DNA of 44,944 nt from IMG/VR virus record IMGVR_UViG_3300031576_000101, positions 1 to 44,944 of that record. The stretch is one strand, 5' to 3'. A model generated the notes under the pieces. It saw only the letters and a program-made list of their open reading frames with translations. It was not told the origin of the DNA and made no database searches. A program made the translations under genes and the position numbers. Source of the DNA: a virus. This document shows, in pieces, positions 10,929 through 40,525 of the stretch (positions within the stretch are counted from its first letter, which is position 1; each line of letters starts with the position of its first letter).

Positions 10929-11623
10929 GCGCCCTCCCCTCGAATCAGCCGCATCCGCCGCTCGTAGGCGTCGTCGGGCCCATCGACCTCGTCGAGCCAG
11001 CCGTCGGCGTTCAGCCAGGTCCCGGCGTAGGGAATCCTGTCCGTCGGCCGACGCCGGAAGTCGGGGAGCGCTCGCTCAAGGCCCGTGTAGATTGCCTCGG
11101 CGGTCTCCTTGGCGTGAGAGAGTCCCCCGCGCTTCAAGGCTGCGAGGTACGCACGTCGTGCGGCAGCCTTCGAGCGTTTGCGAGGCCAGCGGATCCAGAA
11201 CTCCTCGAACGCAAGATCGGCGAAGGGTGACAGCTCCCCCCCGGACCCCCCCTGAGTGGGTGTTCCTACAGAAATAGCTTGAGTACTGCGGGGTAGATCT
11301 AGTTCCTTAGGTTCGGGTGCAGATTCCCGCCGCACACCTGCACCCGTGCAGATTCTGCACCCCCCTGCCCGAAGGTGGAGCCCGTAGAGGTTCGTGCCGT
11401 GCTTGCCAGCGTTAGGCTGGATGTGAAGCTCACCACGCGCCTCGGCTCGGCGTAGGCAGTCCTGCACCGCCCGACGAGACATCCGTGTGTCGTGCGCGAG
11501 TCTGTCGATGGACGGCCAGGCTCCGTCCTCGCCGTAGTAGTTCGCAAGCACGAGCAGGACGAGCCGCGTCGTTCCGCCCGTCTCGGATCGTTGCAGTACG
11601 TCGGTCATCGCCTGAACGCTCAC
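10925..11623 (-). CDS. O-like replication initiator with winged-helix domain (232 aa)
   Basis: N-terminal residues 15-70 form a winged helix (LVLLVLANYYGEDGAWPSID, then MSRRAVQDCLRRAEARGEL). The C-terminal part FEEFWIRWPRKRSKAAARRA ... IPYAGTWLNADGWLDEV matches the F-x-x-FW-x-x-x-P-K ... P-x-TWLN-x-x-xW pattern of phage replisome-organiser proteins. The role is to bind the origin and recruit host helicase. Residues between the domains are encoded by DNA with dyad repeats and an AT-richer stretch, as in lambda O. GTG 11623 overlaps the upstream micro-ORF stop. No phage helicase, primase or polymerase was found, which makes this the key replication gene. Confidence 0.82.
   Translation of the reverse strand: MSVQAMTDVLQRSETGGTTRLVLLVLANYYGEDGAWPSIDRLAHDTRMSRRAVQDCLRRAEARGELHIQPNAGKHGTNLYGLHLRAGGCRICTGAGVRRESAPEPKELDLPRSTQAISVGTPTQGGSGGELSPFADLAFEEFWIRWPRKRSKAAARRAYLAALKRGGLSHAKETAEAIYTGLERALPDFRRRPTDRIPYAGTWLNADGWLDEVDGPDDAYERRMRLIRGEGA
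11252..11360. other. Candidate replication origin inside the initiator gene
   Basis: Four GTGCAG half-sites in alternating orientation lie at 11317-11322, 11338-11343 (inverted), 11346-11351 and 11355-11360 (inverted). They form two perfect dyads, CTGCAC-CC-GTGCAG (11338-11351) and GTGCAGA-T-TCTGCAC (11346-11360); GTGCAGATTC also occurs as a direct repeat at 11317 and 11346. The adjacent 11252-11316 is visibly AT-richer than its surroundings. Iterons plus an AT-rich stretch in the linker of an O-type gene is the lambda arrangement. Direct evidence is the repeat structure; function is inferred. Confidence 0.6.
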
Positions 11624-12076: not shown

Positions 12077-12108
12077 CACGGACCCGGTGTCCAGGGCGTC
12101 TCGCTCAT
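12076..12108 (-). other. 10-codon micro-ORF bridging recT and the membrane micro-protein
   Basis: MSETPWTPGP then stop. ATGA overlap with the recT stop and TGATG overlap with the next start, which has no Shine-Dalgarno sequence of its own. Likely a translational relay. Confidence 0.5.
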
Positions 12109-13277
12109 CGGCCTGTCGCCATCGACCGGGTCTCAAGGCAGCCCGCCACCGTGCAGATCTCGAGCCGGGCGTCGACCTTCGACAGAGCCCACAGGTGAAC
12201 GTGTGTGGTGGCGGCGGGTTCCTTCCCCGTGTCGGTTGTCTCCCCGACGGTGTGTGCTCGTTCAGCCCCCGCCGCCACCAACCCATCCCACTGACGGACG
12301 AGTTCCGCAGCGGTGCGTTGGTCAAGATCGTTGAAGCTCGCCACCCTCGCCTCGGCGTGACGCTGCTCGTCGTCCCAGCCGAGCTTCCCCGCGAGGATGG
12401 CGAGGGTGGCCTTCTGCCGCGCCGTCGCCCGCTTGGAGGAAGGCGGCGGGGCAGTCCCCGTACCAACCCCACCGCCTTCCAACCCGGAGGCCTCGCGCGC
12501 GCCCCGAGGAGAGGCCGACGCCGGCGCGACTGACGGTTCGCTGTCGGCTTCCGTATGTGGGTGTCCAGCCTCCGGGATCTCTACGTCGACCGCAGGGCCG
12601 TTCTCAACCACGGCAGCGACATCGAGGATCTCGCCTGTCGCGGTGTCGACCGCGCGGCCGTTGACCTCGACGGTGCTGCTCGCAGCCCGCGCCTCTGCGA
12701 GCTCCTCCGCCGTGGCGTCGGGGTTGAAGTAGGCGTTGGCCTCGTCGTCGGCCATGATCTCGCCCTCGACGTAGACGCGGGCGCCCACCACGTCGGGGCA
12801 GAACCACGCGACACCGTTGGACATCGCCCGGGCGAACAGCATGTTGCGTGGGTAGGTCGTCCAGGGCGTCGGCTTCCCGTCCTTGGAGACGAACCGTAGG
12901 ATGGCCGTCTTGGCGTCCTCGAGAGTGAACACCGATGTCCCCTGCGGGATCCAGTGCTCACCGTCGTCACGCTGCAGGAACTCGATCTCGGCCCGCTCGT
13001 TGTCCAGATGCTTGACCCGATAGTCGTAGCGGGGATCGGCCTTCACGCGCTGGGCAAGCAGGTCTGCCGACAGCTCGACCTTGCCATCCATGACGTGCAG
13101 GGAGCGCATCGACTCGACCGGCGACAGACCAAGCTCGCGACCGGCGAGCACCTTCACCGCAGCCTGGGCCCGGCTCTTGATGTCGGGGAACAGCCCCGAA
13201 GCCTGCAGCAGCTCTCCGACGAGTGCAAGGTTCTTGAGATCCTTCTCCCGCAGGACGATCGCGGTGTCGGTGCTCAT
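12105..13277 (-). CDS. recT: RecT-family single-strand annealing protein
   Basis: Binds single-stranded DNA and anneals complementary strands during phage recombination. Residues about 10-210 carry the actinophage RecT/Bet signature (LVGELLQASGLFPDIKSRAQ, GRELGLSPVESMRSLHVMDG, SADLLAQRVK, YPRNMLFARAMSNGVAWFCP). The C-terminal third has a low-complexity linker, then ARQKATLAILAGKLGWDD and a short Cys/His tail (HVHLWA...CTVAGC), so at 390 residues it is longer than classical RecT (about 270). ATG 13277 overlaps the upstream stop. No RecE/lambda-Exo-type nuclease is recognisable nearby. Confidence 0.88.
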   Translation of the reverse strand: MSTDTAIVLREKDLKNLALVGELLQASGLFPDIKSRAQAAVKVLAGRELGLSPVESMRSLHVMDGKVELSADLLAQRVKADPRYDYRVKHLDNERAEIEFLQRDDGEHWIPQGTSVFTLEDAKTAILRFVSKDGKPTPWTTYPRNMLFARAMSNGVAWFCPDVVGARVYVEGEIMADDEANAYFNPDATAEELAEARAASSTVEVNGRAVDTATGEILDVAAVVENGPAVDVEIPEAGHPHTEADSEPSVAPASASPRGAREASGLEGGGVGTGTAPPPSSKRATARQKATLAILAGKLGWDDEQRHAEARVASFNDLDQRTAAELVRQWDGLVAAGAERAHTVGETTDTGKEPAATTHVHLWALSKVDARLEICTVAGCLETRSMATGR

Positions 13278-25619: not shown

Positions 25620-26582
25620 TCAGTTAGCGCCGATAGATGATGCGCTCTCGTAGCGCGTGAGCGAGTTCTCCCGGATCCGGCCGTAGCCCAGGAGGCCATA
25701 CCAACCGACCGAGATGAACCGCTGCAGGTCGTCGAACGGGCCCGCGATGACCACGTGCTGCGGGTCGCCGACGCCCTCACCGAGCGCCTGCCGTCCCGCG
25801 AACACCGTCGCGTACACGTCGACGGTTCCGCCGACTCCTGCGTCGGCGAAGATCCTGCTGTTGGCGTTCTCCACGATCCGTACGCCGCCGAACGTGCCGA
25901 TCTCTCCCATGTAGAGAGCGGCCGTGTCGACGTTGCCGTGCGGGTAGGACCACGCTTGCTGCCCGGTCTCGGCCTGCAGGTCGTAGTCCACGTCTGGGTG
26001 GATGAACGACACGTAGGCCATCGAGCCGGGCGGTGGGGGCGTGTTCTTCCCCGCGAGGAACGCTCGGGCTCGCCGGACGTTGTTGCCGATGAGCGTGTGC
26101 GTCGCGGCCACCGTTACACGCGAGGTCGCTGCGCCCGCGTAGATCACGTTGGTGCCGGCGACCAGGACATCGCGAGCGATGAGGTCGACCGACTCCTCCA
26201 TGTTCTGCGTGATCTCCTCCGGCACGCTCAGGTCGAGCGACAGGAACGAGGTCAGGCGGAGCTTCCGGGTGTGCTTGACCGCGTTGCCCTGCTCCACCAG
26301 GGTCACGGTCTTCTGGGTGTCCGCCATGTTCACCGGGGTCGGCTCGACCGTCTCCGAAAGAGCGGTCGTCGCTGGCACGAGCGCCGAGATCTGGGTGAAC
26401 GTGACGGCGTTGCCGGGCATCGGCTCGGCCCCACGGCCGCCCGCCCACTTCACGTCGGCTACCCGACGGAACACGAAGGCTGCGCGGAAGGCCATGAGCG
26501 CCGCGGTGTTGAACACCGTCTTGACGGTGTCACCACCGATGAACCCGGCACCGTCGGTGGTTGCCATCGACGGAGCTGGCAT
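25620..26582 (-). CDS. Major capsid protein, N4-gp56 type
   Basis: HK97-fold shell protein. The pattern matches the N4-gp56 family: EPMPGNAVTFTQISALVPAT, NAVKHTRKLRLTSFLSLDLS, EEITQNMEESVDLIARDVLV then GTNVIYAGAA, MAYVSFIHPDVDYDLQAETG, and GTFGGVRIVENANSRIF near the C-terminus. 320 residues is normal. ATG 26582 has a GGGAGAGGAG site. It directly follows the scaffold gene and is followed by a strong terminator, so this two-gene unit can be transcribed at high level on its own. Confidence 0.92.
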   Translation of the reverse strand: MPAPSMATTDGAGFIGGDTVKTVFNTAALMAFRAAFVFRRVADVKWAGGRGAEPMPGNAVTFTQISALVPATTALSETVEPTPVNMADTQKTVTLVEQGNAVKHTRKLRLTSFLSLDLSVPEEITQNMEESVDLIARDVLVAGTNVIYAGAATSRVTVAATHTLIGNNVRRARAFLAGKNTPPPPGSMAYVSFIHPDVDYDLQAETGQQAWSYPHGNVDTAALYMGEIGTFGGVRIVENANSRIFADAGVGGTVDVYATVFAGRQALGEGVGDPQHVVIAGPFDDLQRFISVGWYGLLGYGRIRENSLTRYESASSIGAN

Positions 26583-26622: not shown

Positions 26623-27183
26623 CTACGTCCCGGTGCCTTCCGCCTCGAGGACTCGTCGTTGCTCCTCGAACTGGATGCGCTTAATCTCCTCCCACGCCTG
26701 CTGCGGCGGGTTCTTCTCGATCGCCCCGAGGATCCGGGTCTCGATCGGGTCAGCACCTTTCGGCGGAACCGGGTAGGGGGCCTCGCCCCCGCCGGTCATC
26801 GCGTCCTGCGCTGCCTGCGTTGCCGTGGGTGGGGCATCGACCGGGGGGCCGGCGGATGGCGGCTGGGCCGGTGGTGCCTGGCCCGGCTGCGGCTCGCCAG
26901 ACGGAACCGCTGGGGGCGGAGCGGCGGCCTTGGCCTCGTCAGCGAGCTTCGTCGCGTACTCGCCCTGCTTGTCGAGCGGCTGAGCGGCGATGAGCTCAAT
27001 CTGCGTCGGCGTCAAGCCGTGCGTGCTCCCGAGCGCCTGCGCCTGTAGCTCCCGGTTCTTCGCCCGGAGATCGGCGTTCTCCTTCTTGAGAGCATCATCG
27101 GCTCCTGGGGGAGGAGTCCCCGTCGCGCCTTCACCTGGGCCTTCTCCGCCTTGCGGATAGACCGTCGGATCGGTCTGTGACAT
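26623..27183 (-). CDS. Probable scaffolding protein (186 aa)
   Basis: MSQTDPTVYPQGGEGPGEGA at ATG 27183 after AAGGAGG. Layout is typical of scaffolds: disordered N-terminus, coiled coil (ALKKENADLRAKNRELQAQA), Pro/Ala-rich linker (residues 85-125) and a C-terminal helix (WEEIKRIQFEEQRRVLEAEG) that would bind the capsid subunit. It sits immediately upstream of the capsid gene. Confidence 0.8.
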   Translation of the reverse strand: MSQTDPTVYPQGGEGPGEGATGTPPPGADDALKKENADLRAKNRELQAQALGSTHGLTPTQIELIAAQPLDKQGEYATKLADEAKAAAPPPAVPSGEPQPGQAPPAQPPSAGPPVDAPPTATQAAQDAMTGGGEAPYPVPPKGADPIETRILGAIEKNPPQQAWEEIKRIQFEEQRRVLEAEGTGT

Positions 27184-27334: not shown

Positions 27335-27538
27335 CTAGCGGGGTCGATGACCGCCGTTCTGGGAGCGCCGCCACTCCTCGACACGCTCACGCCGAGCCCG
27401 GATCGCGTCCCGGATCTGCGAGAGCAGCCGGCGCCACCATGGCGGGAAGCGTTCCGTGAGCCCGTAGAGGTAGCCAGCAAGGAATGCGGCCATGACGACC
27501 GTGAGCCAGACCCACAGGCCGATGTCGAACAAGCTCAC
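27335..27538 (-). CDS. Single-pass membrane protein (67 aa)
   Basis: MSLFDIGLWVWLTVVMAAFL then AGYLYG is a transmembrane helix (residues 5-26); the rest is basic and Trp/Arg-rich (PPWWRRLLSQIRDAIRARRE). GTG 27538 overlaps the NlpC/P60 stop. A holin-like or DNA-ejection role is possible. Confidence 0.72.
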   Translation of the reverse strand: MSLFDIGLWVWLTVVMAAFLAGYLYGLTERFPPWWRRLLSQIRDAIRARRERVEEWRRSQNGGHRPR

Positions 27539-28824
27539 AGACCTTCGCGCGCGGGCCCGTAGAGAGGTTGGCCGGCGGCGGCACCGACGAGACGCTGGCC
27601 GACGAGAGCGGAGCGGTTCCGTTGCAACTGCTCGAGGATCCCCCGCTTGTTCTCGGGGTCGGCACCCGATTCGAGCACGGCGAGGTAGGCGTCGGTGATG
27701 CCAGCGGCTCGGAGCTCGGGGGCGATGAAGTCCTTCACCTGCCGGATCTGCTGCACGAGCGTCGGGAGGTCGACAAGCTCCCCGTGGGCACCAACCTGCT
27801 TCGAGGCGGCGACGGCGCTCTTGGCGTCGATCGCGAGGCCCTCGGCGGACTGCAGGGAGGCGGCCTCGTAGATGTTCGCGATCCTCGCGTTCGGATTGCC
27901 AGCGACATAGTCGGCCCACTCCTTCTTCCCAACCTCGTCCTGGCCCATCGCCTTGAGCGTGGCCGAGAGCGCCCGACGGAATGGCTCCCGCACCTTCGCC
28001 TCGCGGATCACCATGGCCTCGAACGCCCACTCGTCGGGCGACTTGTTGTTGGCCACGAGCGCCCCGATGAGGTGGCGGTCGACCTTGACCCCGAACTCCT
28101 TGGCGATGTCGGCGTAGCCACCAGGGCCGTACGCGAGACGCACGTACTCCGCCGCCGTCATCTTGAGCGAGCCGTCGGCGTTGAAGATGCCCGGGAACGT
28201 GCGCTTGAAGATGTCGGAGTCGTAGATCGCGGCCTCCATCTCGTACTCGGTCCACTGGCCACGGATCGCGTCTTGGATCAGCGGCATGAACATGTCGGGT
28301 GCCAGCCCGAGGCCTCGGAGGATGCCACGCAGCTCGCCCCGCGTCAGATCGTCACCCCCCGAGGCCCAAGCCGGCGTCGCCCCACCACCTGAGACGTTGA
28401 GGTTCTGGATCGCCCCGGAGATCTCCGCTTGTGAGGAGTGCGAGAGCGACGCGACGCGACCACCGCCGATGTAGTGCGACCAGTCGACGGCCCGAGCGAC
28501 GACTTGATCCTCGGAAGAGGACGCGTCGATCATCTTGCCACCGCCGATGTAGATGCCGACGTGGTCCGCCTGTCCGGCACCGAGCCGGCCGTAGTTGAAG
28601 AACACGATGTCCCCGGGGCGCAGGCTCTTCCGGGCGACGCCCGGGAGGGTCTGGTAGTAGCCGTTGGCGGTCGATCGGGGGATGTTCAGTCCGGCTCGAG
28701 ACAGGCCGAACCACACGAGGCCCGAGCAGTCGAATTGGCTGGGGCCCTCCGAGCCGAACGTGTACCCGTTCCCGAGCTGCCTGCGCAGGATCCGCAGGAA
28801 TCGAGCGACGGTCGCGTCAGCCAT
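27535..28824 (-). CDS. Virion NlpC/P60 peptidoglycan peptidase (429 aa)
   Basis: An N-terminal NlpC/P60 cysteine peptidase (residues 5-120) cuts peptide stems of peptidoglycan. Cys33 in QFDCSGLVWFGL and His88 in ADHVGIYIGGGKMIDA are the catalytic pair, and LRPGDIVFF is the usual strand between. The remaining 300 residues are helical, with YVRLAYGPGGYADIAKEFGV and DFIAPELRAAGITDAYLAVL. Location between the giant protein and the capsid genes indicates a structural enzyme that opens the wall for DNA entry. ATG 28824 lacks a good ribosome site and is overlapped by a micro-ORF. Confidence 0.88.
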   Translation of the reverse strand: MADATVARFLRILRRQLGNGYTFGSEGPSQFDCSGLVWFGLSRAGLNIPRSTANGYYQTLPGVARKSLRPGDIVFFNYGRLGAGQADHVGIYIGGGKMIDASSSEDQVVARAVDWSHYIGGGRVASLSHSSQAEISGAIQNLNVSGGGATPAWASGGDDLTRGELRGILRGLGLAPDMFMPLIQDAIRGQWTEYEMEAAIYDSDIFKRTFPGIFNADGSLKMTAAEYVRLAYGPGGYADIAKEFGVKVDRHLIGALVANNKSPDEWAFEAMVIREAKVREPFRRALSATLKAMGQDEVGKKEWADYVAGNPNARIANIYEAASLQSAEGLAIDAKSAVAASKQVGAHGELVDLPTLVQQIRQVKDFIAPELRAAGITDAYLAVLESGADPENKRGILEQLQRNRSALVGQRLVGAAAGQPLYGPAREGL

Positions 28825-28852
28825 CTACGTGAACACGTCCCACGTTGTTCAT
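28817..28852 (-). other. 11-codon micro-ORF leading into the NlpC/P60 gene
   Basis: MNNVGRVHVDG then stop. It overlaps the upstream stop (ATGA) and its own stop lies just past the ATG at 28824, so it could deliver ribosomes to a start without a Shine-Dalgarno. Confidence 0.4.
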
Positions 28853-29232
28853 CCCGTTCTCCTTCCCATCGCCCGAGAGATCACGTCGGCGTATTCGGCG
28901 CCTTTGTCGCGCCAGTATTGCGTTCGGCGCACGCCTTCTCCGCCTGAGAGCAGCTGATCGTGGATCTCGAAGTCCGATAGGTGCTGGACCGACTCCCACC
29001 AGTTCTTCGGCGGCAGGCGCCCCCAGACCTCGTAGTAGATGCGCTCGGCGCGGACCTTGTCGGGGTCCTCGGGCTTCGTGCCAGCAGTCGCCGCAGCGAT
29101 GATGTCGAGGACATCCTGCGGGATCTCATAGCCGGTGGTGGTGGTCGTGGCACCAGCAGCAGCCTCAGCGGCCTGCTGAGCCTCGAACTCTCGTTGGCGG
29201 ATGGCCTCGATATCGGTGGAAGGTACGCTCAC
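28849..29232 (-). CDS. Small virion-block protein (127 aa)
   Basis: MSVPSTDIEAIRQREFEAQQ at GTG 29232 (GTGA overlap with the giant gene). Ala/Thr-rich helix first, then YEVWGRLPPKNWWESVQHLS and RDKGAEYADVISRAMGRR. It may accompany the giant protein in the particle. Not recognised. Confidence 0.72.
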   Translation of the reverse strand: MSVPSTDIEAIRQREFEAQQAAEAAAGATTTTTGYEIPQDVLDIIAAATAGTKPEDPDKVRAERIYYEVWGRLPPKNWWESVQHLSDFEIHDQLLSGGEGVRRTQYWRDKGAEYADVISRAMGRRTG

Positions 29233-32200
29233 GCCGCCACCGCCTCTGATCCCCCGATCCGATACCAGATCGGCGGCATGAACACTTCGATAGCCGCCTC
29301 CGGGCCGGTCTGACGGTCGAGCCAGTTCCACTCAGCCGCGAACTCCGGCGAGACCTGAGAGAGCTCGTCGACGTGGGCCATCAGCGAGTCACGGAGCGCC
29401 CTGTACGCGATGGCCTTCGCCGCCGTGTCGCTCAGCCCGTGCAGGTCGTAGGCCTCCACCACAACTTGAACCTGACGCACCGCGTCAAGCAGGGCGTCCC
29501 ACGAGGGACGAGCCTCGGCAGACCCGAGGAAGCCCCACGTGTCGTCACGGCGGTCGAGCACCTGCTCGAACGCGAAGCCCCATGTGTTCGCGTGGGCGAC
29601 CTGCTCTGCGAACGCGGGATCGGCGGCTGTCTGGGAGCGCACCCAGACATCGAGCGCCGCGTAGGCCCGCGTCGAGGAGAACGCAGGATCGCTCGCCTCC
29701 TGCTGAGAGATGAACAGGCGGATCTGCTCGTAGGTTCCCCAGGCCTCCTCAGCCGCCGGCGACGTCGACTCTCCGAGGATCGTCTCCCGGTCGAACCGGC
29801 TGTTGTACTGGTAGGCGCGGCGGACAAGCGAGACGAGGTAGCTCTCCTTCTCCGTTGGGTTGCGCGTCCCCCACCACAGGATCATCGGGTTCTCGTCGGC
29901 GGGGAACGCATCGTAGGAACTGTTCACCCACGTTCTCACGGCGGCGTAGGCGGCGGAGAGCTCCTCCTCGGGCCCGGCCACGTCGATTGCCGCACGACGG
30001 GTCTCGAACGTCGACCACCACGGGTTGATGTCCTTGTCGAAGGTGGACTCCGAGATTCCGTCGATGAGCCGGTCGCCTACCGTCCGAACATCGGCACGCA
30101 GGGCGTCATCGAAGAACAGGCGGAACGCCTGCTCTCCCTGCGGGAACACACCGCCCAACACCTTGAGGCCGTCCTCCCACATCTTCACGATCCCGAGACG
30201 CTCGGCCGTGGTCGAGCTCAACGTACGCAGGTTCGCCTCGGCCAGGGCATCGCGCGTCCGGTCGTACAGCGGGAGGAAGCCCTGCAACCAGCGCCCGACC
30301 TCGGTGCGCCCGAACATCTTGTTGCGGGCCAGCTCGCGCGCGACGCCGAGCACGCGGGGGGAGACGCCCTCGTCCTGCTGGGTCTTGTAGTCGGTCCACC
30401 ACGCAGGGTAGAGGCCGCGGAGCCGCTGCAGCTCGTCGTCGCGCTCGCCCGCCAGGTCGTCCCAGCCCGGGTCTCCCTCACCGAGGCCCTGATCCTCGAG
30501 CGTGGCGAAGCTCGCCCGGTAGTCCTCGTCGAGGTCGAAGTACCCGTCCCAGCCGGCCTGACGTTGACCCTCCGCGATGAACTCGCCCGGCGAGCGCACC
30601 GCCCGGGCACCGGACGCGATCTGCGCGAAGAAGATGCCTGGGTCGAACTTCCCCTCGGCCAGCTCGTTCGGGATGATGGCCCAGACCCACTCAGGATAGC
30701 GTTGGGCGAACTCGCGAGCGCCCTTCGTCGCCAGCAGCTCGGCCACCAGTCGATTCGCCGGGATCGGCAGCGGCGAGCGGAACGGGTCGTCGGGGTCGGT
30801 CGCGTCCCACATCGTTCGTGCGATGGTGATGAGCCGGTTCTCGGGGTGGTCGATCAGGAACTTCTCGCGCCCCTCGAGGGGCCCATACGTCTCGATCAGA
30901 TCACGGTACTCGTTCTCGAGGTCGACCGTGGGGAACTCGATCTTGGGAGCGGCCGGGAACACCCACGCGAAGAACATCCGCAGGGTGGAGAACTTCCACG
31001 CCTGGTTCGCGGCGAGCTCCGGGTCGGGCTCGAGGCCCATTGCCTCCTGCAGCTGCAGGAAGTGGGTCCGGTTGAGGTTGGCGGAGTCGGCGAGCAGCTC
31101 AGGGAAGGCCGCTTCGAGGCCGTGGCGGAGCCACGATGGCAGGAGCCCCTGCGGCTGGGTGACCGAGATCTCCCCGAACTGGAACAGCCACGATTCGATG
31201 CGAGACTTGAGCCGCGCGTCGATGGTCGAGGACGCGAGCCAGTTCTGCATCACGCCCTGCAGCGGCGGAGCGATCGACGGGATCGGGATGGGGAACTCCG
31301 TGCCGGCGAAGCCACCGAGGTTCACCGGGAAGGCACCTTGGGCGAACAGGTTGAACGCAGAGAGGTTCGCCGACAGCTCCCATCCACCCCCGGCACCGGG
31401 CTTGAGAGCACCGCCCGTGGCCATCGCGAGCAGCGGAGCAGCGCCCGCCCACCAGGACAGCGGAATCACCAGCTCGCCCGTTTCCTCGTCCCGCCGCACG
31501 AAGCCCGACTCCATGGCGTTGCGGCCCAGCCGGATCGCGTGTCCGATGACCTCGGGCCGTTGACGGATGATCCGCGACCACACGAGCGGGAACTCGAGGA
31601 ACGGCTGCACGAAAACGAGGCCGTACCGCGTCATCTCCTCGACGCGCCCGGTCCGGGAGAAGTCGAACATGATCCGGCGCACCTGGGCGATGCCCTGCTG
31701 CCGCGCGGTCTCGCGGAAGCCTGGGAGTGCCGCCTTGATGGCGTCGGGCGCCCAACCGGAGGCCTTGGCGTTCTCCACGAGCGACCGGTAGGTGAGGTCG
31801 TACCAGTGACGGAAGTAGGGCTGGCGCGACAGGCGGTTCGTCGGCTCCTGCAGGATCCACCGGCCGAAGAAGTCCCTGAACTTCTTGAGCCCGCCGATCT
31901 GGCCTGAGAACAGCTCGGCCATCTCCGGCCCGTGAACGTACAACGGCTTCTCCGCGGGCGGGATCGTCCGAAGGACCGACGGGTCCAGCTCGTTTCGTGC
32001 CGCGGCAGCGGCGAACTCCGGGTGGCCAGCCGTGATGTCGTCGGCGTAGCGCACGGCGATGCGGACCTGATACTCGAGCGCCTCGTCGGTGATGTCGTCG
32101 ACGCCGTGCAGGAGCCTCCTCGCGTACGTGGGACCTTCGCCCCGGGTGTCGCGGAGCCAAGTCATGATCTCCCCGATGAGACGCTCTGGGTCGCGCTCGG

Positions 32201-35200
32201 CGGCCACGCCCAGCAGAATCCGGTTGCCCATCGGGTCCATCCCGTACTGGTGAACGAGCGCGTTCCACCAGAAGTCGTCGAAGTGGTCCTCGTCGCGCGC
32301 GATCCGCAACCAGCGGCCCGGGCGTAGGCTCGCGAGCTCCTTGGCGACGGCCGACGACGAGTCGAGCAACAGGTGGGCGGCGCCTCTCCCGGCGTTCACG
32401 AGGGGCTCTGGGCCCACACCCGTCCGGCGGAACGTCATCACGCCGTCGTCGATGAGACGCTGGCGTCCGAGGGCCGCCGCGGCCGTGGTGGCCGCGTCAC
32501 CGCGGATCTTGAGCTTCGTGGCGACGATCCCGACACTGGCGAGCTGGGTCGGGTACGCGCTCGCGATCTCGAGGGCGCGTTGGCGCATCAGGTCGTCCCA
32601 GATGCCCCCGTGCAGGATGACTTGCGCCAGAGCTTCTGCCTCGTCGCGGTGCTCGGCGGTGAACCCGACGCCGTCGATGATGCCGTGCGCGGCCCGGTCG
32701 TTCAGGAACAGGATGGAGTCCTCGACCGTGGCGACGTTCCCCTTGCCGACACGCTGGCCGACACCCTCGGGGAGCTTGAAGCCCACCTTGATCTGGACCG
32801 GCTTCGACAGTCCGAGGCGCTCGAGCAGCGGCCCCGAGCGCTTACCGGCGGCGAGGCGGTTGAAGATGCCGACCGTGGCCAGGAACCGCGACTGCTCCTC
32901 GAGCCCGACCACGCGGAGCACGTAGGCCGGACGAAGGACCGCCAGCGGCTTCCAGATGGCCAGGAACAGGTCTTGGATCAACGTCTCCGCGATCCGGTCG
33001 GCCGCCGCTCGGGCCGGGATGATGGCCTTGCCGGTGAACTGTGGGATCCCGCCGAGGGCCGACGACTGGGCGTTCAGCCACTTCCGCCAGGTGCCCATCG
33101 TCTCGGCGATCCCGAGGCGGTAGAGGACAGGGTCAATCATCTCGGCCGTGTTGTCGAACTGTGACGCGAGGAACGGCTTCCCGATCTCGGTCACGTCAGC
33201 AGCGCCGGTCCCGTGCTCGAGGTCGCGGATCGCACTCTCGAGTGCCGCGCGATCCTCCGCTCCGAGGTTGGAACGAGCAAGGGTCCGACGGAGGCCCCGA
33301 GCTTGGATCCGCTGAGCCTCGGTCCCGGCGAACGCAGCGAAGGTCTGACGGTCGCCCGCATCGAGGCCACCGAACCGGCGGCCAAGCCGCGTCTTGATGA
33401 GCTTCCGCATCGCGGCATCGACCCCGTAACGGGTGTCGATCCTGTCGAGGATCTTCGCGTTCAGCTCGCTCACGATCCGCTTGAAGTCCATCTCGCGTGT
33501 CGGGTTCGACCGCTTAATCGCGTTCGCGAACCCCTGCTTGGCCAGCGAGACCTCCTCGGGCGTGAGGACGACCTGCGACCGGAGCATCGCGCGCTCGAAG
33601 TCGCGCACGACCTCGGCGTCCTCGATCTCGAGCACGATACGCGCGCCGAAGCGGCGAGGGAGCGTCTGGAACACCGATCGCATGACGCGACCGATCTCGG
33701 AGTCGGCCAACCCAGAGGTCCGCAGCCAGTTGTTGTACCGGGTGAGCGAGACCCCCGTGAGCCGGCCACCGGTGATGTGCGGGATCTCGAGCATCCGCTG
33801 GATGCCGCCGGCGACGTCGGCCGCAGCGTCGTCGAGCACGCTGAGAGCCTGCTCGGCCTCGCGCGTCTGGCGCTGCACGATGGCAAGTTCAGAGCCGGGC
33901 GTCAGGCTCGAGCCGGTCGCCCCGACCCGCTCGGAGATCTCCGCCACGATGGCATCCGTGCGCGACGCGCGCGCGACCCGGTCGAGCTCGGCGATGTCCT
34001 CTGCGAACGAGCCGAAGGATGGCGGAACCATCATCGCGGCACCGAGCAGCTCGCGGACGGCGGCCTCGATCTTCGGGACGCCGACGCCGAGCTTGCGTGA
34101 GCTTCGGGCGTACTCGAAGATCGAGGCCGCCGTCTTGTAGTCGATGCCCGACCCGGCCCCGAAATACCTGCGGAAGTTGTTCACCGCGCGGTCGAAGTAG
34201 GTGCCCGGGTTCCGGGCACGCAGAGCCTCGCGCGTGAGGTACTGCGCGATGGTCAGCTCTCTCAGGTCGCCGATACGGCGCACACGCTGGTCGAGGAAGC
34301 GCGTCACGTCGGCGATGGTGTCGGCGGCTCGCCCGGTCGCGGCGGTGTTCGTGATGAGCAGGCTCGCCCGGACACCAGAGCGCCACTTGAGGGTCCACAT
34401 GAGCGGGTCGAACTTCGCTCCGATGGCGAGGTCGACGAGCGCGGTGGCCCACAGTGGCACTCCCTCCTTGGCGAACTCCGCGTAGACGTTCGTGCGGCCT
34501 CGAAGGATGTCCCACGAGTCCTTGAGCGCCTCGCGGCCACCCTCCTCGAACACGTAGTTGGGATCGGCGATCTCCCGCACGAGGGAGATCGGCAGCGCGA
34601 ACACGATCCTCTCAAGGGCTCCGACGGGGCGCGAGATGGCGTCGAGCACCCCGACGAGTCCGCGACCGACGACCGTGTCGCCGAACGGAAGCGCGATCCG
34701 GTCCTCGAGCTCCTTGGCGGCGGCAACGTAGTCGGACTGGGCGTCCTCGAGCACCGAGAGCCAGTCGCCCGGATCGGCGAGACCGGCGGTGACGACATCG
34801 GCGAACTCCGCCTCCGCTGCGAGCGTTCCCAAGCTGACCTGTTGCGTCCGTGCACCCTCTCTGGCTATCTCGGTGGCCGCACGCTGAGCGGCGATCTGCG
34901 GCGAAACCGTCTCGGTCCGCTCACGGCGCTTCGGACCAGGGCCCGGTTCCACGAGCCCCAGGATCTTCCCTTCGTGGCGGGCCAGCAGATCCTCGAGGTT
35001 CGGAGCCAACGCCGTCGCCACGTCGGCGAGCGTGCGAACCTGCTGGCCCCTGGCCGCCGCCTGGTGAGCCGCCGCGATCTGGGCCGGCGTATCGAGTCCC
35101 GGGAGCTTCGATGTGAACTCGAGGTTGGCCCTGAACAGCTTGAGGTCGACATCAGACCGGGCGATGGTGACAGCGGCTCCCATCGCTGCAATCAGGGGGA

Positions 35201-35660
35201 ACTCGGTGCCCGTCACCGGAGCGAACGCTTTCAGCACTCGCGAGACCCGGTTCGGGTCGACATCGTCCCCGAGACCGACCGGTCCACGGGGGCCATAGGC
35301 GACGTGTGTCCGCACGGCCCCACGCAGCATCTTCTTCACGATCCGAGGCTCGATGATGCCCATGAGCCGACGCGCACTCTCGAAGGACAGAGGCCCGCCG
35401 GTGACGGGATCCGTGTAGACGCTCGAGAGCGGAGCCCGACCCGGGATCTGATACGGCTCGAACAGGCTGGACGGATCCATGTCAAATCGCCTCGCGAGCA
35501 GCTTCGAGGCGCGGGTCAGGTCGAGATCGGACCAGCCCGACTGCGCGAGCGAGAGCACCATCGTCGAAGGAAGGGTCCCGTAGGACGCGCGCTCGACGTC
35601 GACGATGCGTTTGGGCGTCTCGGAGTAGAACTCGGAGCCGCCCTCGTCCAGGAGGGGCAC
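29229..35660 (-). CDS. Giant 2143-residue protein, probable internal/ejection protein
   Basis: Uninterrupted 6.4-kb frame, the longest gene here. Almost entirely helical with long charged segments. Hydrophobic stretches near residue 345 (VLDAISRPVGALERIVFALP) and near 1400 (WWAGAAPLLAMATGGAL) could insert in membranes. Near residue 1330, FDFSRTGRVEEMTRYGLVFV precedes QPFLEFPLVWSRI; a D-F-S-R-x-G then hydrophobic pattern also occurs in large polyvalent phage proteins. I found no convincing polymerase, protease or lysozyme motif. Position between portal genes and an NlpC/P60 peptidase suggests a protein packed inside the capsid and ejected with DNA, as in podoviruses. Function is inferred. Confidence 0.8.
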   Translation of the reverse strand: MPLLDEGGSEFYSETPKRIVDVERASYGTLPSTMVLSLAQSGWSDLDLTRASKLLARRFDMDPSSLFEPYQIPGRAPLSSVYTDPVTGGPLSFESARRLMGIIEPRIVKKMLRGAVRTHVAYGPRGPVGLGDDVDPNRVSRVLKAFAPVTGTEFPLIAAMGAAVTIARSDVDLKLFRANLEFTSKLPGLDTPAQIAAAHQAAARGQQVRTLADVATALAPNLEDLLARHEGKILGLVEPGPGPKRRERTETVSPQIAAQRAATEIAREGARTQQVSLGTLAAEAEFADVVTAGLADPGDWLSVLEDAQSDYVAAAKELEDRIALPFGDTVVGRGLVGVLDAISRPVGALERIVFALPISLVREIADPNYVFEEGGREALKDSWDILRGRTNVYAEFAKEGVPLWATALVDLAIGAKFDPLMWTLKWRSGVRASLLITNTAATGRAADTIADVTRFLDQRVRRIGDLRELTIAQYLTREALRARNPGTYFDRAVNNFRRYFGAGSGIDYKTAASIFEYARSSRKLGVGVPKIEAAVRELLGAAMMVPPSFGSFAEDIAELDRVARASRTDAIVAEISERVGATGSSLTPGSELAIVQRQTREAEQALSVLDDAAADVAGGIQRMLEIPHITGGRLTGVSLTRYNNWLRTSGLADSEIGRVMRSVFQTLPRRFGARIVLEIEDAEVVRDFERAMLRSQVVLTPEEVSLAKQGFANAIKRSNPTREMDFKRIVSELNAKILDRIDTRYGVDAAMRKLIKTRLGRRFGGLDAGDRQTFAAFAGTEAQRIQARGLRRTLARSNLGAEDRAALESAIRDLEHGTGAADVTEIGKPFLASQFDNTAEMIDPVLYRLGIAETMGTWRKWLNAQSSALGGIPQFTGKAIIPARAAADRIAETLIQDLFLAIWKPLAVLRPAYVLRVVGLEEQSRFLATVGIFNRLAAGKRSGPLLERLGLSKPVQIKVGFKLPEGVGQRVGKGNVATVEDSILFLNDRAAHGIIDGVGFTAEHRDEAEALAQVILHGGIWDDLMRQRALEIASAYPTQLASVGIVATKLKIRGDAATTAAAALGRQRLIDDGVMTFRRTGVGPEPLVNAGRGAAHLLLDSSSAVAKELASLRPGRWLRIARDEDHFDDFWWNALVHQYGMDPMGNRILLGVAAERDPERLIGEIMTWLRDTRGEGPTYARRLLHGVDDITDEALEYQVRIAVRYADDITAGHPEFAAAAARNELDPSVLRTIPPAEKPLYVHGPEMAELFSGQIGGLKKFRDFFGRWILQEPTNRLSRQPYFRHWYDLTYRSLVENAKASGWAPDAIKAALPGFRETARQQGIAQVRRIMFDFSRTGRVEEMTRYGLVFVQPFLEFPLVWSRIIRQRPEVIGHAIRLGRNAMESGFVRRDEETGELVIPLSWWAGAAPLLAMATGGALKPGAGGGWELSANLSAFNLFAQGAFPVNLGGFAGTEFPIPIPSIAPPLQGVMQNWLASSTIDARLKSRIESWLFQFGEISVTQPQGLLPSWLRHGLEAAFPELLADSANLNRTHFLQLQEAMGLEPDPELAANQAWKFSTLRMFFAWVFPAAPKIEFPTVDLENEYRDLIETYGPLEGREKFLIDHPENRLITIARTMWDATDPDDPFRSPLPIPANRLVAELLATKGAREFAQRYPEWVWAIIPNELAEGKFDPGIFFAQIASGARAVRSPGEFIAEGQRQAGWDGYFDLDEDYRASFATLEDQGLGEGDPGWDDLAGERDDELQRLRGLYPAWWTDYKTQQDEGVSPRVLGVARELARNKMFGRTEVGRWLQGFLPLYDRTRDALAEANLRTLSSTTAERLGIVKMWEDGLKVLGGVFPQGEQAFRLFFDDALRADVRTVGDRLIDGISESTFDKDINPWWSTFETRRAAIDVAGPEEELSAAYAAVRTWVNSSYDAFPADENPMILWWGTRNPTEKESYLVSLVRRAYQYNSRFDRETILGESTSPAAEEAWGTYEQIRLFISQQEASDPAFSSTRAYAALDVWVRSQTAADPAFAEQVAHANTWGFAFEQVLDRRDDTWGFLGSAEARPSWDALLDAVRQVQVVVEAYDLHGLSDTAAKAIAYRALRDSLMAHVDELSQVSPEFAAEWNWLDRQTGPEAAIEVFMPPIWYRIGGSEAVAA

Positions 35661-35666
35661 GGGCGG

Positions 35667-36044
35667 CTACCTGCCTTCTCGGATCTTCGCGATGTAGGGG
35701 CCCAGGCTCGGAGCATCCGACGTGGACAGCTCATCGGCCACACGCAGCATGAATGTCCGGTCGTCCTCCGAGGGCAGGCGCACGAAGTTCGGGCCCGGCC
35801 CGAACGGGGCGCCGGCGGTGATCGGCTCGTCGGGCCGCGACGTCGGCGACATGATGACCTCGTCGTAGCCGTCGTTCAGCTCTTGGACCGGCCCTCCGGC
35901 CGGACCCTCGTTCTCAGGCGAGCCGGGCGGTCCCAGCGGTGGCTGGTCCGGGACGGAGGATGCGAGGCGGGCCAGACCCGCCGACGTTCCATGCGGAGCC
36001 TCGGCTCCCGCGCGGATCGGCGGTGTCTGACCCGGTCTCGGCAT
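35667..36044 (-). CDS. Small virion-block protein, proline-rich (125 aa)
   Basis: MPRPGQTPPIRAGAEAPHGT: residues 1-85 are Pro/Gly-rich and probably disordered; the C-terminal 40 (DRTFMLRVADELSTSDAPSL and GPYIAKIREGR) form a helix. Tightly packed between its neighbours (1- and 6-base gaps). Unknown role; such proteins often bridge portal and internal proteins. Confidence 0.72.
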   Translation of the reverse strand: MPRPGQTPPIRAGAEAPHGTSAGLARLASSVPDQPPLGPPGSPENEGPAGGPVQELNDGYDEVIMSPTSRPDEPITAGAPFGPGPNFVRLPSEDDRTFMLRVADELSTSDAPSLGPYIAKIREGR

Positions 36045-36045
36045 C

Positions 36046-36480
36046 TCAGGCGACGCGACGGATGTGCTCGACGATCATCGAGAACTGCTCGGCGCAGGCC
36101 TCACAGTCGGGGTCGAACCCCTCGGGTGCGTGTGCCGCCTCGGCCGAACGATGGGCACCGCACGCGACCGGCGCGTAGGGCACGCCGTTGTAGACGAACT
36201 CCATCGCCCCGCTGTCCGGCACATCGCGCAGCTTGAACGGCCCGCCGTCCTCGGCGGTCGGGTCCTCCTTGGGAACGTCCGCGGCCGTGACGTGGCGCGC
36301 CAGGTCGATCTCACCATCGATGCCGCGCTCGGTAGCCTCCTCCACCCTCACCTGAGCGTTCTCCGGGTGAGCGCCCTCAGCGACCGCGATCGCTGCCTCA
36401 AGGTCGGCCTTGCTCATGCCGGACCGGCCCTCGATCTCGAGCTCCCCGGCTCTGACCCTCAGCTCCTCAACCGTTGCCAT
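36046..36480 (-). CDS. SAP/Rho-N-like domain protein (144 aa)
   Basis: Residues 1-34 (MATVEELRVRAGELEIEGRS then GMSKADLEAAI) match the helix-turn-helix of SAP, HeH or Rho N-terminal domains, which bind nucleic acid. The C-terminus has CGAH and CEACAEQF, a likely zinc site. The ATG at 36480 follows GGAAGGAG inside the end of the portal gene. Position after the portal suggests a head-completion or DNA-binding virion protein. Confidence 0.75.
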   Translation of the reverse strand: MATVEELRVRAGELEIEGRSGMSKADLEAAIAVAEGAHPENAQVRVEEATERGIDGEIDLARHVTAADVPKEDPTAEDGGPFKLRDVPDSGAMEFVYNGVPYAPVACGAHRSAEAAHAPEGFDPDCEACAEQFSMIVEHIRRVA

Positions 36481-36484
36481 GTGC

Positions 36485-38320
36485 TCATCTCCTTCCTGCT
36501 CTCAGGAGTGCCGGTGGCGGCAATGGGACCGCCGGCGACTCCGCTTCCGGTGGCCCGAGGGCCGCCGCTGGATTCGGTGCCCCCGATGCCGCGGGACCAG
36601 CTCCACCGACGACCGGGGGCACCGCAGATGTCTCTCTGGCCTTGGCCGCTAGGGTACGACGCACGAAGTCCGCGAGGGGGACGCCCTCGTCGAACGCGAG
36701 CAGCGCCTCCCCAGCCGCGGACAGGCCTTCCGACGCGACCTGACCGATGAAGCCGTCGGCGAGCGTCTGCATGCGGATCCGGGACAGCTCCTCCGCAGCT
36801 TCCTCGATCCCGGGGTCCTGTTCGATGGCAGTCTCGCGGCTCATCATCCCAATCTGGACCTTGTTCTGGTTCAACACCGTATGGGTCGGCAGGTCCAGGC
36901 CCGAGGCGGGCCCGTAGGAAACCCAAGTCGCCGTGTCGGTGATGTCGCGGCTCGGCGTGTAACGGTCGGCGAAGCGCCTGCCTCGAGCGATGCCGGAGAT
37001 CTCCTTGCCCTCGGCCTCGCACCAGGCCTTGTCCTGCTCGAACGCGATCTCGTTCAGCCGTTGCTTCGTCATGGCGAACTGGTCGTGCAGGGCCATCACG
37101 AGGTCGGAGAGCTTGCCCTGCGCGCGCGTGAGGAACGCCGCGGTCGACTTGTTGAGGTTGACCTCCCCCTCGCGCGCGCTCGGCTTCACGGCACCCTCGC
37201 GGCCTTCGGACTCGAGCTGCGCGATGACCTGCATCGCCGCGACCGACGGCGAATCCGGCCCGATCTTCTTCATGTAGGCGTCGGGCCCGAGCGCCCAGAA
37301 CGTCTGATTGGGGCCGCGATCGGTCGGGTTCTTGACCTGCCATACGAGCGTCCCGCCGTAGACCATCTGCACGAAGTAGTCGAGGAGCATGTGCCAGTAC
37401 CGGTTCCGCGTCTGGATCGGGCCCTTCGAGTCGTCCAGGAGACCCTGTGGCTCCGCGCCCCACGTAGGCCGGTAGGAGATCTGCACGGGGCAGAGGCCCG
37501 TCGGGTTCGGGAGCCACACGAGCAGCTCGCACTCCGCCTTGCCCGGCTCGTGCTTGTAGATCGCGGCCTTGCCGATGAACTCACACGAGTACCAGTCCAC
37601 GATCGTCACCTTCGGCACACGGATCTCTCGAGCGGCCGCCGACATCCGCTGCAGGTCGTAGCCGTAGGCGGCCCCACGGATCTCGTCCGACGAGAGACGC
37701 GCGGCCAGCGCGGCATGTTGGGCCGGGAACACCTTCTCGAGCTTGGACAGGGGCCACTCCTCGGTGATGGCGGCGTACTCGGTCGGCCGGTCGGGAGCCC
37801 AGAGCTCCTCGGGAAGCACGCACAGCGGATCGAGCCGGCGGAACACCGGGAACCGCTGGGCGCCGGAGTAGCCCTTCTCCGGCCAGACCTTGACGGCCGT
37901 GTACCCGGCTGCGGGGTAGTCCATGCCGTGCAGCGCAAGGGCGTTGCGAAGATGGGAGCGCTCGTCATAGCCCACGGCGATCCGCTCGCGGAGCTCAGCA
38001 CCGCGAGGATCGGTGTCGTCGGTGTGGTCACGTGCGAACACCCGAGTCGTGGGCATGATCTTGGCGAAGAGCCGGCCGATGTCCTCGACCTGATCGCGGA
38101 AGAAGTTCGCAATCATCGGCAGGTTGGAGTCGGAGACCTCGCCTCGGTAGACATCGCCCCAGCGGTTCTCCACGAGCGAGCGGATGTCGTGCTGTCGCCC
38201 TCGCAGACCGACCCACTTGTTCTCGAGGAACTGGTACCGCTCCTTGATCTCGCCCGCGATGATGTGGGCGTCGTCTGGGAGCGTGATCGACGACGAGGGG
38301 TAGGTGACCATCGACGGCAT
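36485..38320 (-). CDS. Portal protein (611 aa)
   Basis: Forms the ring through which DNA is packaged and ejected. MPSMVTYPSSSITLPDDAHI, ERYQFLENKWVGLRGRQHDI then RSLVENRW is the usual helical start; IVDWYSCEFIGKAAIYKHEP is a wing strand; RNRYWHMLLDYFVQMVYGGT and AFLTRAQGKLSDLVMALHDQ are stem-like helices, and the last 60 residues are Pro/Ala-rich. The call rests on overall pattern, length and its place directly after the terminase. Three bases separate it from the terminase stop. Confidence 0.82.
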   Translation of the reverse strand: MPSMVTYPSSSITLPDDAHIIAGEIKERYQFLENKWVGLRGRQHDIRSLVENRWGDVYRGEVSDSNLPMIANFFRDQVEDIGRLFAKIMPTTRVFARDHTDDTDPRGAELRERIAVGYDERSHLRNALALHGMDYPAAGYTAVKVWPEKGYSGAQRFPVFRRLDPLCVLPEELWAPDRPTEYAAITEEWPLSKLEKVFPAQHAALAARLSSDEIRGAAYGYDLQRMSAAAREIRVPKVTIVDWYSCEFIGKAAIYKHEPGKAECELLVWLPNPTGLCPVQISYRPTWGAEPQGLLDDSKGPIQTRNRYWHMLLDYFVQMVYGGTLVWQVKNPTDRGPNQTFWALGPDAYMKKIGPDSPSVAAMQVIAQLESEGREGAVKPSAREGEVNLNKSTAAFLTRAQGKLSDLVMALHDQFAMTKQRLNEIAFEQDKAWCEAEGKEISGIARGRRFADRYTPSRDITDTATWVSYGPASGLDLPTHTVLNQNKVQIGMMSRETAIEQDPGIEEAAEELSRIRMQTLADGFIGQVASEGLSAAGEALLAFDEGVPLADFVRRTLAAKARETSAVPPVVGGAGPAASGAPNPAAALGPPEAESPAVPLPPPALLRAGRR

Positions 38321-38323
38321 CGT

Positions 38324-40525
38324 CTAGCGGGCAGTCAACCCGAGGAGCCGTTTCTCGGCCCATTCGGGCGGCTTCCCATTGAGACGTTCCGCGATCCAGC
38401 TCGGCGTCTCATCGCCGTAGTCGTCGTCCGCTTCCTCCGCCAGATACATCACCAGGAGCGAGTCCGCGCGGAAGGCGTAGAACCACTGGCCCATGACGAG
38501 GTCCCACGTCGAGCCCTCCGGCCAGGCGCAGGCCTCCTTGATGAGCGCATCGGCGAACGCGCGCTCCTCACCGCCTCCGTAGGGCAGCTTCATCCGGCCG
38601 AACTCGTACATCGGTCCGAGCATCTCGACGCCGCGGTCCGGGTCCGGCTTGGTCTGCTTGGTGGTGGAGTGAGGCACGAGCGAGACGCCCCGCTCCGCGC
38701 ACCACGTCGTGACGAACTCGTACTGCATGAGCCACCGCTGTTGAGCCTGGGACTCGACCACGAGGTAGGTGGGGGCGTTGCCCTCCTCGCGCGCCGCGGA
38801 GTACCACTCGTCCAGAAGGCCCGTGTAGACGCCGTCGGCGCCGCGATAGATCAGGTCGGGGGCCTGCATGATGCGGCGGGCGCCACGATAGACCTGCGAG
38901 AACCGATCCGGCCATCCGACGACGTGCTGGACCGACCACCACTTCGCGCCGGAAGGGTCCACGGTGAACATCGAGATCCCCGGTGCGTCGTCGCGGTAGA
39001 GCTGACCGAACCGGACCTCACGCTCGAGGCAGCCGGGCGCGATCGCGCCCTTGGAGTCACGGCCACCCTCGAACCAGGCGCGCTGAGCGAGGTTCCCAAC
39101 AGGGTCGACATCGCCCTGCTGCCACACGAGCTCGAACCGCCGCGAGTTCTTCTGAGCCTTGCGGATCCGCCGGATCGAGGTCCGCACGGGATCGAGCAGG
39201 CACCCGTCGGGCCAGGGGCCACCGTGGGTGACTGTGACTTTCCCGTCGATATTATCGACCGACCGCTCACACTTGGTCTCGTCGTGCGCCGGCAGAGCGA
39301 TGTGCTGATACATCGGCCGCGGGCGCCCCAGGTCGTCCAACTCCTCCTCATCGAGCTCCTGGCGGACGTGCCATGAGAGATCCTCGGGGCTGTATCGGGC
39401 GTTGGACAGAACCATCAGCCCGTCGGGCTCAAGGCGAGTCTCGGCGTCCTGCTCCCACCAGTCCACGACCTTCTCGCGGGCATCGGCGTTGCCGGAGTTC
39501 GACCGGTCGATGAGGTCATCCCACACGCAGACGTTGGCTCGGATCGAGAGCAGCGACTTCTCGTAGGACACCGCGTTGAACGTCGCCTCCTTCTCCGTCA
39601 GGCCCGCCCACGCCAGAGGTTCCACGTCGAGCTGGTCGTTCGACCATCGGGCACCCTGGCGCTCGGGTCGGAACCGGCCGTAACGGCGGATCAGCTCCGC
39701 GTTGGTCTCCATCGTCCGTCGGAGACGGTGGATGTAGAGCTTAGCCTTCGCGTCGGACCGGTGGCCGAGAGAGAACACAAGCTCGATTCCCTTCGCCCGC
39801 GCCTGCGTCTCGAGCCACAGCACCCAGTCATGGGTCACCACTGTCGATTTCCCGAGCCCCGGGTTGAAGTTCACGACCGCATACTGCTCCCCGGCCATGA
39901 AGTAGAGCTCAGTGAGCTCGGTCGCCGTCATCGTCGCCCACGGGGGAGACTCGCGGCCGAGGACCCGCGGGCGGAACAACGCGAAGTCGTCGAGGGTCTC
40001 GCGATCCCCGCGCTCAAGCTGTTCGTAGGGGATCGGCTCGGACCCGCCGACGAACGCCAGACCCCGCGTCGAGCGAGCGGACTGCTCCTCCGTGGTCAAG
40101 GCGAGGATCCCTTCCTCTCGCCAGCGGGCACGCCATCGCTCAACGGTGTCCGGAGTCATCGTGAGCACGTCGGCGACGTAGCGGGCGGTGTGGCCCTTGC
40201 GGAGGAGCTCGAGAACCTCCGGTTTCAGCTCGACCGCTCGCTCCCGGGTGAGCAGTGCTCGCCGACCTCTCGGTCTGGGTGCAGGGATGGTCAGAGGCAC
40301 AGGCGGCAGATCGGTCGGGTTGGGAGGGATCGGGACCGCAGGCTGGTAAAGCCGGTTGACGAGATCGAGTTCGCCCCGCGCCTTCGCGATCCCGACCCAC
40401 TTCTGAGCACTCGACATCGCGCACTGCTCGGAGAAGCTCGTCATCCAGATCTTGTAGAGGACACCCTGCGTCCCCTCCTCGGCCACCGCCCTCAGCAAAC
40501 GATCGCGGACCTCGCGCTTCGTCAT
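38324..40525 (-). CDS. terL: Terminase large subunit with N-terminal DNA-binding extension (733 aa)
   Basis: Motor that pumps and cuts phage DNA. ATPase: Walker A NPGLGKST (221-228), Walker B VCVWDD (332-337), coupling segment MVLSNARYSP. RNase H-like nuclease: FTVDPSGAKWW, YLVVESQAQQRW and STWDLVMGQWF supply acidic residues. Residues 1-180 are extra compared with the usual 450-550: AVELKPEVLELLRKGHTARY then VADVLTMTPDTVERWRARWR is a helix-turn-helix at about 97-137. No separate small terminase is recognisable, so recognition may be built into this protein. ATG 40525 follows directly on the upstream TAG. Confidence 0.92.
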   Translation of the reverse strand: MTKREVRDRLLRAVAEEGTQGVLYKIWMTSFSEQCAMSSAQKWVGIAKARGELDLVNRLYQPAVPIPPNPTDLPPVPLTIPAPRPRGRRALLTRERAVELKPEVLELLRKGHTARYVADVLTMTPDTVERWRARWREEGILALTTEEQSARSTRGLAFVGGSEPIPYEQLERGDRETLDDFALFRPRVLGRESPPWATMTATELTELYFMAGEQYAVVNFNPGLGKSTVVTHDWVLWLETQARAKGIELVFSLGHRSDAKAKLYIHRLRRTMETNAELIRRYGRFRPERQGARWSNDQLDVEPLAWAGLTEKEATFNAVSYEKSLLSIRANVCVWDDLIDRSNSGNADAREKVVDWWEQDAETRLEPDGLMVLSNARYSPEDLSWHVRQELDEEELDDLGRPRPMYQHIALPAHDETKCERSVDNIDGKVTVTHGGPWPDGCLLDPVRTSIRRIRKAQKNSRRFELVWQQGDVDPVGNLAQRAWFEGGRDSKGAIAPGCLEREVRFGQLYRDDAPGISMFTVDPSGAKWWSVQHVVGWPDRFSQVYRGARRIMQAPDLIYRGADGVYTGLLDEWYSAAREEGNAPTYLVVESQAQQRWLMQYEFVTTWCAERGVSLVPHSTTKQTKPDPDRGVEMLGPMYEFGRMKLPYGGGEERAFADALIKEACAWPEGSTWDLVMGQWFYAFRADSLLVMYLAEEADDDYGDETPSWIAERLNGKPPEWAEKRLLGLTAR

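Follow-up and report, generated by a model that had tools for sequence, protein, structure and literature searches.

Most of the podoviruses for which ejection proteins are described infect Gram-negative bacteria; the phi29-like phages of Gram-positive hosts lack such proteins, according to a review. The internal core proteins gp15 and gp16 of phage T7 are large, Cys-free products of the structural module, and the wall-degrading activity of T7 resides within gp16. Phage N4 carries a giant, Cys-free virion RNA polymerase (vRNAP), gp50, together with gp51 and gp52. In the available part of PMC2784036, which cites Kazmierczak 2002, the lack of Cys is suggested as a possible aid to cell entry by N4 vRNAP; we found no papers extending this idea in a limited literature search.

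Closer to the system described here are the Streptomyces phages of cluster BF (Beephvirinae). The parts of the reports available to us describe Abafar (PMC11536984) and FlowerPower, Fabian, Geostin, RetrieverFever, and Vorvolakos (PMC9753666) as podoviruses by TEM. They also give the BF phage Destructrice a tail of 16 nm and state that, like other BF phages, it has no identifiable tape measure (PMC13097060). Manuel gp10 and Dennebes gp9 are Cys-free proteins of 1635–1646 amino acids from this group. Proteins of the Manuel type are encoded in 29 phage records, including those of all six phages imaged by TEM, and are annotated as hypothetical in 29 of 29. A limited literature search found no published function for the family.

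Here we analyze a stretch of 44,944 nucleotides from a viral record (IMGVR_UViG_3300031576_000101), hereafter the window, that encodes a distant, 2143-residue member of this family (P0001). Since this giant protein has no Cys, like known ejected podovirus proteins, it probably belongs to the apparatus that injects DNA into Gram-positive soil hosts.

Results

A giant gene between portal and capsid genes

The head region of the window contains the following genes.

38324–40525, minus strand: terminase large subunit (TerL) with an N-terminal helix-turn-helix (PHROG E 4e-23; Pfam)
36485–38320, minus strand: portal protein, 608/611 aa (similarity to annotated BF portals)
36046–36480, minus strand: 144-aa protein with 3 Cys (sub-threshold Rho_N-like match)
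35667–36044, minus strand: 125-aa Cys-free protein (weak similarity to Dennebes gp7 and Manuel gp8)
29229–35660, minus strand: giant protein, 2143 aa, proposed ejection/pilot protein (frame and codon statistics)
28849–29232, minus strand: 127-aa Cys-free protein, its start overlapping the stop of the giant gene by 4 nt (GTGA)
27535–28824, minus strand: NlpC/P60 peptidase, 429 aa, one Cys (C33), proposed partner of the giant protein (Pfam E 2e-20)
26623–27183, minus strand: scaffold-like protein, 186 aa (by position; no family match)
25620–26582, minus strand: major capsid protein (MCP), N4-gp56 family (TIGR04387, 119.5 bits against a cutoff of 60)

The original prediction, made from the window alone, was of a single frame filling one seventh of the genome, and this is what we find: the gene begins with GTG, 6 bases past the end of its upstream neighbor, and takes up 6432 of 44944 nucleotides (14.3%). 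Its GC content by codon position is 0.68/0.48/0.88, with third-position values of 0.82–0.92 in each 600-base block. Over 2115 codons aligned with its closest homologue, L044, 28%, 22%, and 46% of codon positions 1, 2, and 3 have changed; the concentration of changes at third positions identifies this frame as the coding one. The same pattern ruled out an 844-aa open reading frame (ORF) on the opposite strand as coding.

The predicted location, between portal-proximal genes and a peptidase and upstream of scaffold and capsid genes, was borne out by matches to the neighbors or by their position, as was the N4-gp56-type capsid. In phmmer comparisons the portal matched the annotated portals of Dennebes (E 1e-16) and Manuel (E 4e-14). 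Among 28 window proteins scanned with PHROGs, none was assigned to a tail-tube, chaperone, or tape-measure family, in line with the predicted lack of a tape-measure gene. The N-terminal region of TerL scores against HTH_29/HTH_23.

Outside the head region, the window encodes a WhiB transcription factor (6310–6807), as annotated in Dennebes, which suggests an actinobacterial host. There are also two DNA methyltransferase genes, of N6/N4 type and C5 type (9720–10928 and 4573–5394), and genes for a RecT-like annealing protein and a replication-initiation protein (12105–13277 and 10925–11623; PHROG). No tRNA genes were found in the whole window record, unlike the five BF phages in the available part of PMC9753666, which have 16–21 each.

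A long, divergent member of the phrog_10618 family

The single significant PHROG match of the giant protein is phrog_10618 (E 7.4e-7, residues 1142–1378), labeled as function unknown, and the protein is a long, divergent member of that family. Pfam, NCBIfam, and PDB sequence searches returned nothing above chance, the PDB-chain search giving chance rows only, and tblastn against 50,697 phage records found weak similarity in four Streptomyces phage records. The only close homologue that we found is L044 (contig IMGVR_UViG_3300019458_000014), with 63% identity. A direct search of viral contigs revealed no close relative, a search of viral contigs with the two-row alignment recovered the L044 contig again and nothing else, and no close relative in genome contigs was confirmed by tblastn.

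More distant relatives were gathered as loci in a capsid-based scan (at least 80) and in giant-based scans (79 and 65 more). The 64 representative giants range from 1068 aa (truncated at a contig end) to 2635 aa, are mostly 11–19% identical to the window protein, and come from loci of 38–68% GC. An HMM of 20 giants, built without the window protein and L044, matched L044 at E 9e-24 (Z 1e6). Comparison of the window protein with 63 relatives, again leaving both out, gave an hhalign E of 3.5e-32 over residues 1130–1858; reversed-profile controls, run on smaller profiles, gave E of at least 0.03. The conserved parts lie as follows.

34404–34463, minus strand: N-terminal motif, residues ~400–419 (D410 and P419 kept in 94% of 65 rows)
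32886–32954, minus strand: W-x-P...Y..R motif, residues 903–925 (R916 in 65/65 rows)
30087–32273, minus strand: conserved core, residues ~1130–1858, common to the whole family
31647–31664, minus strand: D-F-S-R-T-G block, residues 1333–1338, inside the most conserved block
29232–30077, minus strand: C-terminal extension, residues ~1862–2143, aligning with L044 only

In the 65-row alignment D410, P419, W903, Y913, and R916 are conserved in 92–100% of rows. This suggests that the giants are collinear outside the core too, where the outer parts are not significant by profile comparison alone. Columns conserved in at least 85% of rows hold mainly Gly, Pro, and aromatic residues with a few Arg and Asp. 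The D-F-S-R-x-G block that had been predicted near residue 1330 is present, but its wording is not kept in distant relatives; it is lineage-specific within a conserved block and is not a family-wide motif.

The protein owes its length partly to the C-terminal extension. Alignment occupancy past residue 1900 is 0–7%, and the family profile did not match the extension significantly. Residues 2085–2118 resemble the family C-terminus, but a duplication of the C-terminal module did not reach significance (E 0.05, against 0.07 for the best of five shuffles). Other members are long as well: the L205 member (L205:1–7905) has at least 2635 aa in a frame that runs off the start of its locus and contains no Pfam domain, and no Pfam domains explaining the extra length were found in L205, L180, L204, or L176. 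The giant and peptidase profiles had no ORF hit in common, and thus no fusion of the two was evident. A 1132-aa ORF in L058, downstream of its capsid gene, is unrelated and was left out of the family.

Predicted structure

AlphaFold2 models were obtained for residues 950–2143 (mean pLDDT 68.7, pTM 0.50) and, at low confidence, for residues 1–1190 (mean pLDDT 55.1). Helix makes up ~68% of residues in both, in line with the helical protein originally predicted, the N-terminal value coming from the low-confidence model. Seven BFVD models, that of the Manuel protein among them, match the C-terminal model at E ≤ 2e-10; the predicted fold thus backs family membership while it is silent on function. 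A Foldseek search of PDB with the C-terminal model gave no match at E ≤ 0.001 (best 0.11), and neither did a search of BFVD with the N-terminal model (mean pLDDT 55). A second look at the fold (VIA) returned mostly HEAT-like helical rows with Z ≤ 6.1, which we treated as common helix packing.

Two possible membrane segments had also been proposed. In a Kyte-Doolittle scan the best 19-residue windows scored 1.42 (residues 149–167) and 1.47 (1397–1415), under the usual cutoff of 1.6. The scan thus revealed no clear transmembrane segment and no C-terminal transmembrane helices like those of T7 gp16. No match to the T7 gp16 fold was detectable, with half of the giant protein modeled at low confidence. 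At the profile level, hhalign of the family against gp16, as a single sequence, gave E 0.43, and hmmsearch gave no match.

Gene order is kept across the family

The giant is encoded in the head/tail module, as expected of ejection proteins; podovirus morphology is known from its relatives only. Among the matches listed, the order terL, portal, giant, nlpc, mcp holds as far as contigs reach in the 173 loci with a giant, a redundant set in which repeated contigs and the window's own piece are counted. One set of loci was chosen by capsid and the other two by the giant alone. The portal lies upstream and the peptidase and/or capsid downstream in 116 of the 173, and none shows a conflicting order or an opposite-strand giant, again among the matches listed.

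The cultured carriers of the giant are the cluster-BF phages. Manuel gp10 and Dennebes gp9 share with the window a homologous core, the same gene order, the lack of Cys, and a podoviral setting; they differ in that the similarity is distant, they are shorter than 2143 residues, and they lack the C-terminal 280 residues. In Manuel and Dennebes the giant is followed by more such genes than in the window, namely a peptidase and its paralogue annotated as a glycosylase.

Cys is almost wholly excluded from the giant and the neighboring peptidase

For counts of Cys, every protein was cut at its first Met if this lay within the first 120 residues, a rule of thumb that treats all protein classes alike and may drop a few true N-terminal residues. 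The trimmed giants contain a single Cys in 104,459 residues, and 63 of the 64 representatives are Cys-free; the stop-to-stop frames before trimming contain 19 Cys in 105,721 aa, with 51 of 64 Cys-free. The computed pI of the window protein, which has 0 Cys, is 5.4.

The neighboring peptidase family (76 ORFs) retains 13 Cys after trimming, and 13 of 13 lie in the motif [DN]CSG, the catalytic motif of NlpC/P60 enzymes. The sole Cys of the window peptidase is C33 in FDCSGLV, the expected catalytic residue. From these sequences the peptidase seems to have been purged of Cys save the catalytic one. Similarly, Dennebes gp5–gp13 and Manuel gp6–gp14 each contain a single Cys, at peptidase position 33. 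Portals of giant-bearing loci contain 4.04 Cys per 1000 residues, and none of the 38 portals of at least 500 aa is Cys-free; the values for TerL and MCP are 11.15 and 2.30.

Known ejection proteins show the same bias. In T7, N4, P22, phiKMV, SP6, and P-SSP7, 16 of 19 are Cys-free (6 Cys in 15,197 aa), compared to 9 of 43 other virion and packaging proteins of the same six phages (145 Cys in 20,872 aa; Fisher p 5e-27, a residue-level test that ignores relatedness). Among proteins of at least 600 aa, 11 of 11 ejection proteins but 0 of 11 others lack Cys. The ejection proteins that contain Cys are T7 gp14 (1) and two small P-SSP7 proteins (4 and 1). Epsilon15, which we kept apart from the six-phage count, is a mild exception, with 2, 1, 2, 1, and 1 Cys in gp13–gp17; Cys exclusion is not universal in the ejection module. 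Conversely, the lambda tape measure gpH is Cys-free, which fits its passage through the tail, and short MCPs and scaffolds can be so too; Cys-freeness therefore does not single out ejection proteins. The exclusion of Cys, which the window protein shares, is a marker that we propose for ejection proteins and no classical definition of them.

An analogous arrangement occurs in Bacillus phage Pony (Pagevirus), which has a related capsid and, next to an NlpC/P60-SLT protein, a 1679-aa protein free of Cys. Pony gp18–gp20 (L004:17676–24879) are 417, 246, and 1679 aa long and contain no Cys, and one is annotated as lytic. Unlike the window protein, to which it has no detectable similarity, gp20 occupies a different genome place, and Pony is Cys-poor overall. 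It is possible that gp18–gp20 are an unrelated ejection module, in a phage that is Cys-poor in general.

Discussion

The giant is likely, in our view, to be an internal virion protein that serves DNA ejection (a pilot protein), encoded by a podovirus lineage infecting Actinobacteria. This reading is supported by the podoviral relatives, the invariant place beside portal and peptidase genes, and the Cys exclusion common to ejection proteins; composition is the strongest clue to the giant's role. Counting against it, the giant resembles neither T7 gp14/15/16 nor N4 gp50–52 in sequence, has no convincing fold match in PDB, and shows no clear transmembrane segment. The giant would work like an ejection protein in the T7/P22 sense and yet falls outside the T7 gp16 and N4 vRNAP families by our tests, which makes it a variant of known ejection proteins. 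It differs from the T7 system in the location of its gene between portal and capsid genes, in its Gram-positive host, and in the placement of an NlpC/P60 domain in a separate gene nearby.

The gene's location between portal and scaffold/capsid genes and the lack of membrane segments would also suit a head-internal or portal-associated assembly protein, a core or inner scaffold retained in the capsid, and N4 gp57, the N4 MCP, and the scaffolds of P22, SP6, and phiKMV are Cys-free as well. These Cys-free controls are short, however, and no virion or packaging control of at least 600 aa is Cys-free (0/11). Moreover, Cys is excluded in the same way from the adjoining peptidase, an enzyme that has to work on the cell wall, and we regard an assembly protein as unlikely. 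Length, helicity, and a lack of Cys, as in lambda gpH, could instead indicate a tail tape measure, and tape measures do appear among the sub-threshold Foldseek rows, weakly (E ≥ 0.04). Tape measures scale at 0.15 nm per residue, which gives ~320 nm for the window protein and 247 nm for Manuel gp10; the reported tail length of Destructrice, in the part of that account available, thus excludes a 1600-residue tape measure in the BF group. Together with the lack of any tail-tube, chaperone, or tape-measure family among the 28 window proteins scanned, this leaves a tape measure scarcely credible.

The original prediction had offered, besides an ejection or pilot protein, a polyvalent multi-enzyme protein. 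Such an effector, delivered along with the DNA to counteract host defenses, would account for the giant's size, and Cys exclusion would be expected of it too if it passed the portal. Nevertheless, Pfam, PHROG, NCBIfam, and PDB searches revealed no such enzymatic or polyvalent-associated domain, either in the window protein or in the relatives scanned, and no Pfam match reached a curated cut-off in sets of 12, 7, 6, and 4 relatives (best E 0.0048 to 0.1). The columns conserved in at least 85% of rows contain no evident catalytic set, and the gene's position is fixed in the head module. We consider this part of the prediction very improbable, whereas the ejection candidate is supported. An RNA polymerase of the N4 kind is the least probable identity. 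The N4-gp56-type capsid, giant size, and lack of Cys recall gp50, but the suggested profile comparisons with N4 vRNAP and T7 gp16 gave no similarity: the 65-row profile resembled none of four overlapping gp50 pieces, and we found no polymerase evidence in the giant. T/DxxGR strings occur four times in it, a motif too short to mean anything.

For an ejection protein we envisage the following route. Within the head, copies of the giant would be packed at the portal. They would leave by way of portal and short tail, ahead of the DNA or together with it. They could then join the NlpC/P60 peptidase, whose gene lies two places downstream, and perhaps small nearby proteins in building a passage by which DNA crosses peptidoglycan and membrane. 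Cys may be selected against because the chain passes a tube a few nanometers wide and an oxidizing envelope, and must avoid disulfides. A peptidase traveling with the giant could retain its catalytic Cys alone, as seen. The idea that a lack of Cys aids entry was proposed earlier for N4 vRNAP.

Whether podoviruses of Gram-positive, here actinobacterial, hosts possess an ejection apparatus of their own, built from an unrelated giant and a Cys-purged peptidase, with Cys exclusion as a general signature of portal passage, seems to us evenly balanced. If so, Gram-positive podoviruses would have an ejection system of which some members, those of Streptomyces cluster BF, are in culture and grow easily. 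The Cys signature could then be used to find ejection modules that have diverged beyond sequence recognition, offering a sequence-independent route to the annotation of such proteins, which are now mostly labeled 'hypothetical'.
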